DNA of 64,000 nt from Bdellovibrio sp. NC01 (GTDB lineage Bacteria > Bdellovibrionota > Bdellovibrionia > Bdellovibrionales > Bdellovibrionaceae), in contig NZ_CP030034.1 in assembly GCF_006874625.1 (NCBI RefSeq), positions 1,550,001 through 1,614,000 on the forward strand. Direction: 5' to 3'. Below are positions 55,664 to 58,315 of this stretch, piece after piece. The translations under genes and the position numbers were made by a program. A model generated the notes under the pieces. That model worked only from the letters and a program-made list of their open reading frames with translations, was not told the origin of the DNA and searched no databases. Position 1 is the first letter of the stretch, and every line of letters begins with the position of its first letter.

Positions 55664-56122
55664 ATGAAGTGTTTTCTTTTCAGTCTTTCTTTGATTTTTA
55701 TTTCATCGTTTTCATTTGCGGGTGAGTGCCAGGATTTTTCTGGGGACTATAAGCTTGTGAGTGCGGGGCTTGATGTTCCTGCTACTTTAACTATTCAACA
55801 AAGTGGTTGTGAGAAGTTTGTTTTGAAGTATCCATCTCGTGATGATGTGTATGTGCTTGATGGGGTTAAAGTTCAGCATGATGAAGTGGCTTCGATTGGG
55901 ATGGTTGTTTTTACGACATCTTATGTTCGCGATGGGGATATCGTGATTGATATTGAAAATGTCTTCAAAGATCGGGAGCCTTTTAAGATTCGTCGTCGGT
56001 TTCATTTTTATCTGTCGGTTGGGGTGATGGCGGATGAATACGGTTACTTCAATGATTCCGGAGAGTTTGAAGCTAAATTACAGAATGTGTATGAGCCGAA
56101 GCGCGTAGAAAATATATTTTGA
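55664..56122 (+). CDS. Exported hypothetical protein, 152 aa
   Basis: This is an exported protein with a signal peptide ending near SFAGE. The mature part of about 130 residues is beta-rich (DFSGDYKLVSAGLDVPATLTI; FKIRRRFHFYLSVGVMADEY) with two cysteines, suggesting a lipocalin-like or small barrel shape. I do not recognise the family. It lies between the palindromic element and the TPP riboswitch. No operon partner is evident. Confidence 0.7.
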   Translation: MKCFLFSLSLIFISSFSFAGECQDFSGDYKLVSAGLDVPATLTIQQSGCEKFVLKYPSRDDVYVLDGVKVQHDEVASIGMVVFTTSYVRDGDIVIDIENVFKDREPFKIRRRFHFYLSVGVMADEYGYFNDSGEFEAKLQNVYEPKRVENIF

Positions 56123-56142
56123 CAGCCTGATACTTCCTGAAG

Positions 56143-56242
56143 CATAAGCTTGCTCCAACGCTAGGGGTGTTACCGATTGTCGGTGACTGAGAAAAACCCT
56201 TTGAACCTGAAAGAGATAATGCTCGCGCAGGGAAGGCTTATG
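56143..56242 (+). promoter_or_regulatory. TPP (thiamin pyrophosphate) riboswitch overlapping the receptor start codon
   Basis: The conserved TPP aptamer parts are all visible: AGGGGTG (56163-56169), the P3 stem ACCGA/TCGGT, CTGAGA, ACCCTTTGAACCTGA, GATAATGC and CGCAGGGAAGG (56225-56235). The closing helix P1 is CATAAGC (56143-56149) with GCTTATG (56236-56242), a perfect 7-bp match that includes the ATG. The AGGGAAGG serves as Shine-Dalgarno. TPP binding should therefore mask both, shutting off translation of the receptor. Confidence 0.95.
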
Positions 56243-58315
56243 AAAAAACATATTTCTATTCTTGTATTCCTATTCACAATTGCAACGTCAGCGCAGGCGC
56301 AGATTCAACTGATGCAGTTGGATATTACTGAAAAATTGCCGTCGTCTGATATCACCGGACTTTCTGAAGAGGCCGCTAAGACTTTGCCGTTGTCGACAAA
56401 ACAAATTCCCGCTGCGGAATTGCAAGCGAAGCAAATTTATCATTTGTCTGATGTCACGAAAGTCGAAGCTTCAACGACTGACAGCTACAATGCCACGGGG
56501 TATTGGGACATGCTTTCGATTCGTGGTTACACGCTTGATAATCGCACGAATTATTTGCGCGAAGGACTGCCAATCACGGCAGAAACTTTCATTGCTTTAG
56601 ATAATAAAGAAAAAGTTGAAATCCTGAAAGGACTCGGCGGTATGCAGGCGGGGGCCAGCAGTCCTGGAGGATTAGTCAATTACGTCGTGAAAAGACCGAC
56701 GGGCAAAGCTTCACAGGCGATCACAACGGGTGTGAGTGACAGTGGTAATGCATTGATCGCGGCAGATTTTGAGTCTTCGCTGTCGCTTGCGCAAAATATT
56801 GATTACCGCATAAATCTCGCTCAGGAAAAATTAGATCCGCAGTTGAAAGACTCCAAAGGGGAGCGCTCCTTGGCTGCGATGGCAATGGATTGGCGTTTGC
56901 CGTCATCCTCACTTCTGGAAGTGGAAGCTGAGTGGTCTCGTCACTCGCAGCCCAGTCAGGCGGGTTTTAGTTTGTTGGGAAATAAAATTCCGTCAGTCCC
57001 TGATGTGAATTTAAATTTGAACAATCAGTCGTGGACTCAACCCGTGGTGTTTCAAGGTTTAACGGGCACTTTGAAATTTACGCAAGCTTTGGAAAATGAT
57101 TGGTCATGGTCGGTCATTGCCGGTGCGCAAAGTCTTGGAACCGATGATCGCTTGGCTTATCCCTTCGGTTGCTCGGCTGAGAATAATTACGATCGTTATT
57201 GTTCTGATGGCACCTACGATATGTATGATTATCGCAGCGAAAATGAAAGCCGCGAAACGCAAGCGTTGAAAGCTTCGGTGCAGGGACAGTTTGCAACAGC
57301 AGATATCGCTCACCAGATCAGTTTCGGTGTTGTCGGCAGTCACATGAAAGAACGCTATCAGAATCAGGCCTACAACTATGCAGGTGTTGGTAACGTCAAC
57401 GGCACGGGTGTAGGAATCGCAAATCCCGCGCAAAATGATCAAGCAACGAATCGTGATTCGGGAACAGCGGAAGTATTCGTCACGGACTCTGCGAAGTATG
57501 AAAACTGGCAGGCGTGGTTAGGCGCACGTGTAAGTTATATTGATCGCAGCAGTGTGCGCACGGATGGCTCGCGCTCGATTCATTACACGCAAACATTCCC
57601 ACTGCCATGGGTTGCGATCTCTTATGACTTCAAAAGTTTTATTGCTTACACCAGTTACGGGGAGGGTCTTGAATCTTTTGTGACTCCAAATAAGCCTGCG
57701 TATTCTCACCCGGGTGAATATTTAAGTGATGTGCGCAGTCGCCAATACGAAGTGGGAGTGAAGGGTGGCGAGTTGATGCAATGGTCGCTTGCGGCTTTTC
57801 AAATCACGCGTCCTATTGTTGAAGATAAAGAACCGAATTATGAAATTGATGGCGATGATGAACATCGCGGTCTTGAGGCAAGCACTTCGCTGAATTTAAG
57901 TCGTTGGCAAGTGGATGTTTCAGCGATGGCACTGCAAGCAACACGCAAGAACAGTGTTTTGAATACGGCTGCGAATGCGCACACGCCAGTAAACATTCCC
58001 GAAAACGCAGTTCGTGTGAACGTCGTTTATCAAGTACCTGATGTCAGTGGTCTAAGTCTAAATGCGCGTGTGATGCATGAAGGGAAGCGTGCGATTGTCG
58101 CTGATAACACTTTGATGTTGCCAGCGTGGACTCGCGGGGATGTGGGCTTTAGTTACGTAAGTAAATGGTTTGGCAAAAAGACGACGCTCAGTTTTGCGGT
58201 TGAAAATGTGACAGACAATTCCTACTGGCGAGAATCGCCAACGCAGTATGGGCACATTTATCTTTATCCTGGCGAATCGCGCAGCCTCAGTTTGTGGCTA
58301 AACGCGATTCTTTAG
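56240..58315 (+). CDS. TonB-dependent outer-membrane receptor, probably for thiamin compounds
   Basis: This is a 691-residue outer-membrane receptor. A signal peptide (cleaved near AQAQ) precedes a plug domain with LSIRGYTLDNRTNYLREGLP and EILKGLGGMQAGASSPGGLV. A beta-barrel follows, ending with the typical VENVTDNSYWRES and LYPGESRSLSLW. I saw no unambiguous TonB box. Its architecture resembles siderophore receptors, but control by a TPP riboswitch points to uptake of thiamin or its precursors. The ATG at 56240 lies in helix P1 of that riboswitch, so upstream in-frame starts inside the aptamer are rejected. Confidence 0.92.
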   Translation: MKKHISILVFLFTIATSAQAQIQLMQLDITEKLPSSDITGLSEEAAKTLPLSTKQIPAAELQAKQIYHLSDVTKVEASTTDSYNATGYWDMLSIRGYTLDNRTNYLREGLPITAETFIALDNKEKVEILKGLGGMQAGASSPGGLVNYVVKRPTGKASQAITTGVSDSGNALIAADFESSLSLAQNIDYRINLAQEKLDPQLKDSKGERSLAAMAMDWRLPSSSLLEVEAEWSRHSQPSQAGFSLLGNKIPSVPDVNLNLNNQSWTQPVVFQGLTGTLKFTQALENDWSWSVIAGAQSLGTDDRLAYPFGCSAENNYDRYCSDGTYDMYDYRSENESRETQALKASVQGQFATADIAHQISFGVVGSHMKERYQNQAYNYAGVGNVNGTGVGIANPAQNDQATNRDSGTAEVFVTDSAKYENWQAWLGARVSYIDRSSVRTDGSRSIHYTQTFPLPWVAISYDFKSFIAYTSYGEGLESFVTPNKPAYSHPGEYLSDVRSRQYEVGVKGGELMQWSLAAFQITRPIVEDKEPNYEIDGDDEHRGLEASTSLNLSRWQVDVSAMALQATRKNSVLNTAANAHTPVNIPENAVRVNVVYQVPDVSGLSLNARVMHEGKRAIVADNTLMLPAWTRGDVGFSYVSKWFGKKTTLSFAVENVTDNSYWRESPTQYGHIYLYPGESRSLSLWLNAIL

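Follow-up and report, generated by a model that had tools for sequence, protein, structure and literature searches.

Direct translation attenuation, defined by a start codon within 15 nucleotides (nt) of the aptamer core, is a recognised and common mechanism of riboswitches for thiamin pyrophosphate (TPP) (Barrick and Breaker 2007, PMC2258182). TPP riboswitches also control TonB-dependent thiamin transporters, as with OMthi BT2390 of Bacteroides thetaiotaomicron (PMC5613172) and a Variovorax operon (PMC10409787), and omr1 is an outer-membrane B1 uptake gene (PMC12442306). Here we examine a TPP riboswitch that directly precedes a TonB-dependent receptor gene in Bdellovibrio sp. NC01, within a stretch of 64,000 nt of contig NZ_CP030034.1 (hereafter the window). 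We consider it probable that this canonical TPP riboswitch is a direct translational OFF switch for the receptor, the binding of TPP, the OFF direction, the RNA start and the substrate being deduced from the sequence and its relatives. As in the direct attenuation of PMC2258182, the purine-rich 3′ part of the core stands in for the Shine-Dalgarno sequence and there is no separate expression platform; the differences are that the host here is a Bdellovibrio-type predator and that orthologs in the same genus are of the other type. Direct control of this kind is thus not the unusual arrangement that a preliminary description of the locus had taken it to be. The likeness to BT2390 and the Variovorax operon, a TonB-dependent receptor under a TPP riboswitch, is one of gene class and control; by contrast with these systems and omr1, no TPP-controlled gene besides the receptor gene was found in the Bdellovibrio genome, and the receptor falls by score into TIGR01783, a siderophore-receptor subfamily. 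In our literature search, no publication dealing with a Bdellovibrio TPP riboswitch came up.

Aptamer, receptor gene and ribosome-binding site

The preliminary description, made by reading the DNA alone, had proposed a TPP riboswitch here and suggested a covariance-model search for the TPP family as a check. An Rfam covariance-model search of the window returned a match to RF00059 (the THI element) at 56153–56251 on the plus strand, with 61.5 bits (E 1.3e-9) against a curated cut-off of 54.3 bits. This is the sole Rfam family match in the window, and genome-wide there is no second TPP riboswitch match beside it. The alignment covers all model positions 1–105, with helices P1, P2, P4 and P5 and the conserved core (CUGAGA, ACCCUUUGAACCUGA and CGCAGGGA) present; relative to the model, the aptamer has no P3a stem (these model positions are deleted) and its P1 is short and weak. 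Measured from P1 to P1, the aptamer occupies 56158–56239 on the plus strand. Rfam places P1 at 56158–56162 with 56235–56239, its core pairing GCU (56160–56162) with GGC (56235–56237) and its outermost pair being A56158–U56239. We compared 24 genomes of the genus, which yielded 19 orthologous riboswitch loci (L001–L019), and in their 19-sequence alignment the aptamer core is invariant or nearly so. By its sequence, then, this is a canonical TPP riboswitch aptamer standing before a receptor gene, and it presumably binds TPP.

The receptor gene (56240–58315, plus strand) encodes 691 amino acids (aa) beginning with the signal peptide MKKHISILVFLFTIATSAQAQ. The product matches the plug domain PF07715 in Pfam (39.9 bits) and, over residues 52–686, the NCBIfam model TIGR01783 (234.5 bits, above cut-off), so that it combines a plug domain with a full-length match to a TonB-dependent receptor family. 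Its natural start is ATG 56240–56242, followed by the signal peptide. This ATG begins 6 nt past the final A of the conserved GGGAA, inside the 15-nt limit. Judged from sequence, genus conservation and a predicted duplex with the anti-Shine-Dalgarno of −6.7 kcal/mol, AGGGAAGG (56229–56236, plus strand), which lies within the aptamer at its 3′ edge, is the one plausible Shine-Dalgarno sequence for it. In P4, its AGG (56229–56231) supplies the 3′ strand; the remainder continues through the core into P1. The TonB-dependent nature of the receptor, a Shine-Dalgarno sequence within the aptamer core and the lack of a separate expression platform had all been proposed in the preliminary description, and all three hold up. 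An in-frame AUG also lies within the P5 region, with its frame open into the receptor, both in the window (56219–56242; MLAQGRL before MKKH) and at L002, L003, L005, L008 and L014; owing to this AUG, automatic annotation may place the protein start inside the aptamer.

These features support direct control, which would work as follows. A sigma-70-type promoter would start the RNA near 56155, just 5′ of the short 5′ strand of P1. Under TPP shortage the aptamer would open at its 3′ edge, and AGGGAAGG could act as the Shine-Dalgarno sequence for ATG 56240. Bound TPP would lock P4 (in which AGG 56229–56231 is paired), the GGGA of the core, and P1, so that the ribosome could not land and less receptor would be made. 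Because the Shine-Dalgarno sequence spans the P4 strand, the core and P1, the locked aptamer should be enough to cover the ribosome-binding site, with no separate platform needed. The receptor would most likely import thiamin or thiamin phosphate released from prey. That the switch works chiefly on the RNA, through Rho-dependent termination or decay following the translation block, rather than through occlusion alone, is unlikely: such coupling has been described for other TPP riboswitches (reviewed in PMC10907184), but no intrinsic terminator is predicted between aptamer and gene.

Several points weigh against direct occlusion as set out here. P1 in the window is weak, with three contiguous pairs of which one is G-U. 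In folds of a short transcript, accessibility of the Shine-Dalgarno sequence was 0.11 when free and 0.26 with the aptamer forced, opposite to the expected drop; since the energy model takes no account of TPP or of tertiary contacts, the failure of folding energies to confirm a switch is unsurprising, and we set thermodynamic folding aside as evidence for switching, its outcome depending strongly on the ends chosen. The relatives of the receptor with known structure are siderophore receptors, for which reason we can only infer its substrate. Finally, a generic promoter scan reported no promoter because its fixed rule requires T at the last −10 position, and we therefore took the promoter evidence from comparison among loci.

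Putative promoter and the proposed start-codon helix

A candidate −35 element, TTGACA (56119–56124, plus strand), overlaps the TGA stop codon (56120–56122) of an upstream 152-aa open reading frame. TTGAC recurs upstream of the aptamer, 25–60 nt away, in 18/19 genus loci, against 0.7 expected from shuffles. The candidate −10 element, CATAAG (56143–56148, plus strand), follows after a spacer of 18 nt; [C/G]ATAA stands 17–18 nt after TTGAC in 15/19 loci, and its hexamer ends 12–16 nt before the GGGG of the aptamer. TTGACA–18 nt–CATAAG thus looks like a sigma-70-type promoter layout. Spacing would put the transcription start at 56154–56157 on the plus strand (6–9 nt downstream of the −10 element), that is, near 56155. 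With CATAAG as the −10 element and transcription beginning downstream, CATAAGC should be excluded from the main transcript. The −10-like element is also kept at loci where the start codon lies 47–83 nt from the core and could not pair with it, so the promoter explains the conservation of CATAA.

Three related loci (L006, L009 and L017) keep TTGACT and have CGAAGT in place of CATAA at the −10 position; because of this replacement, their promoter may be of a different kind. At L002, the aptamer is directly preceded, about 20–60 nt upstream, by AAACGGCTCTTTTATAAGAGCCGTTTTT, a terminator-like hairpin whose T tract pairs with AGCAAAA as the 5′ strand of a P1 of 7 pairs. The Bdellovibrio map of transcription start sites in PMC3627812 covers attack-phase promoters only.

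The same CATAAGC had been read in the preliminary description as one strand of P1. That description paired CATAAGC (56143–56149) with GCTTATG (56236–56242) and concluded that P1 captures the ATG. The complementarity is indeed perfect and can be lengthened to 9 pairs if one G-U is counted, but that this helix is the P1 of the aptamer is not confirmed: Rfam places P1 as given above, and CATAAGC falls beyond the region that matches RF00059. In the 19-sequence alignment, the share of cells with a standard pair is 32.3% for the 7 proposed pairs, compared with 30.0% in shuffles; 103/500 shuffles reach that share, and slid strands do equally well. For the conventional P1 adjoining P2 (GCU with AGC) the share is 86.0%, and three sequences show a G-C to A-U exchange; its percentage was reached by 3/500 shuffles and its covariation score by 1/500, counts that come from related sequences and so are not probabilities. 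Only in this genome can the −10 region and the start region form a run of more than 4 contiguous pairs; at the orthologous loci the count is 0/18. Shuffling at one locus, with the 38 nt upstream set against the 18 nt that surround the start, gave by chance at least 7 pairs in 7.4% of shuffles and at least 9 in 0.5%, before allowing for the 19 loci compared. With a conserved −10-like element as its 5′ strand and pairing at chance level, CATAAGC–GCTTATG is rejected as the P1 of the aptamer, and a P1 that clamps the start codon is not supported.

We regard it as highly improbable that the RNA nevertheless includes CATAAGC and that CAUAAGC–GCUUAUG serves as a ligand-stabilised closing helix holding the start codon. 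The perfect pairs speak for such a helix, as does the fold of 56140–56245, in which it is strong (z-score −3.66, pair probability >0.99). Tens of extra bases at either RNA end often abolish it, however, its mean pair probability falling to 0.013 for 56100–56260 and 0.15 for 56140–56300, while the fold of 56123–56275 favours a different structure; moreover, CATAAG matches the conserved element found 17–18 nt after TTGAC, and no orthologous locus keeps the pairing.

An arrangement with two transcripts is also improbable. Here the main promoter would yield an RNA with an ordinary aptamer, and a minority of read-through RNAs from the upstream open reading frame would contain CATAAGC and have the start codon additionally masked. 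This upstream frame (55664–56122, plus strand; a signal-peptide-like start, no Pfam match) is a possible source of read-through, lying on the same strand and ending within the −35 element, which leaves no space for an intervening terminator, but folds begun at its start give the helix a probability of 0–0.17, and the pairing is unconserved. What falls away is an attractive but probably wrong mechanism, a start codon clamped by P1; the case illustrates how easily a promoter −10 box is mistaken for part of an RNA helix if a riboswitch leader is judged from its DNA only.

Riboswitch, receptor and thiamin genes across the genus

The TPP riboswitch occurs in 19 of the 24 genus genomes, always before the same receptor. 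Orthologs of the receptor were found in 20 genomes, 19 of them with the switch, and the 4 genomes without a receptor match also have no switch. The receptor ortholog without a riboswitch (genome G020; L040, around 1180–1500) begins a short way past the end of a neighbouring gene that looks HflX-like by eye, an arrangement suggestive of loss of the switch and entry of the receptor gene into an operon.

Among these 24 genomes we found no match for ThiC or TPK (positive controls were detected in known genomes), none above cut-off for ThiE, and none for PnuC. ThiG gave only weak partial matches (21–31 bits over part of the model) within frames of 333–404 aa; we rejected these as ThiG and take them to be another TIM-barrel protein. 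ThiL, the enzyme that converts thiamin monophosphate to TPP, scored above cut-off in 20/24 genomes, and receptor and ThiL coincide in 19 (Fisher p 0.008, uncorrected for kinship). Genomes G007, G014, G016 and G024 have no ThiL above cut-off; three of these are also without receptor and riboswitch, and G007 keeps both. A genome-scale model of B. bacteriovorus lists thiamine among the incomplete pathways (PMC7529429).

With a TPP riboswitch before the receptor and biosynthesis genes missing, thiamin uptake is the natural reading, and it is plausible that the receptor takes up thiamin or its monophosphate across the outer membrane. We accordingly judge likely the thiamin import across the outer membrane that the preliminary description had implied, given the riboswitch and the lack of detectable ThiC, ThiE and TPK. 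The locus thus points to regulated outer-membrane uptake of vitamin B1 in a predator apparently unable to make it. Elsewhere in the family, in other genera, the riboswitch stands before genes for a ThiM-type kinase, hydroxyethylthiazole kinase (L020 and L023), or before a PF09819 permease (L021 and L022), L023 and L022 being named by likeness to L020 and L021, respectively; next to the PF09819 permease is a divergent gene that matches TPK weakly.

Two architectures within one genus

The 19 genus loci fall into a direct type (n = 9), with the start codon 5–6 nt past the last A of the core, and a distal type (n = 10), with the start codon 47–83 nt past the core and a Shine-Dalgarno sequence of its own. 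On the receptor tree the two types need at least 5 changes, 3 of which are forced by well-supported branches alone, and the closest relative of the window receptor (from G025, 65% identity) is of the distal type. We lean, with some reserve, towards the view that, within one genus, orthologous switches before orthologous receptors have shifted repeatedly between occluding the ribosome-binding site directly and relying on a separate platform downstream. If so, they would form a natural series for the gain and loss of expression platforms around an almost unchanged aptamer. We offer these changes of architecture as a lead and not a result, and they are the most interesting by-product of the analysis; the orthologous switches of two architectures make a set open to direct comparison in reporters.

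An anti-Shine-Dalgarno platform general to the distal loci was rejected, as strong complementarity is found in 3/10 only and the other seven are unremarkable. At those three (L011, L012 and L013), the stretch before the distal Shine-Dalgarno sequence is strongly complementary to the GGGAAG of the aptamer (p 0.015 or less, by shuffling), and in this they resemble a strand-exchange platform.
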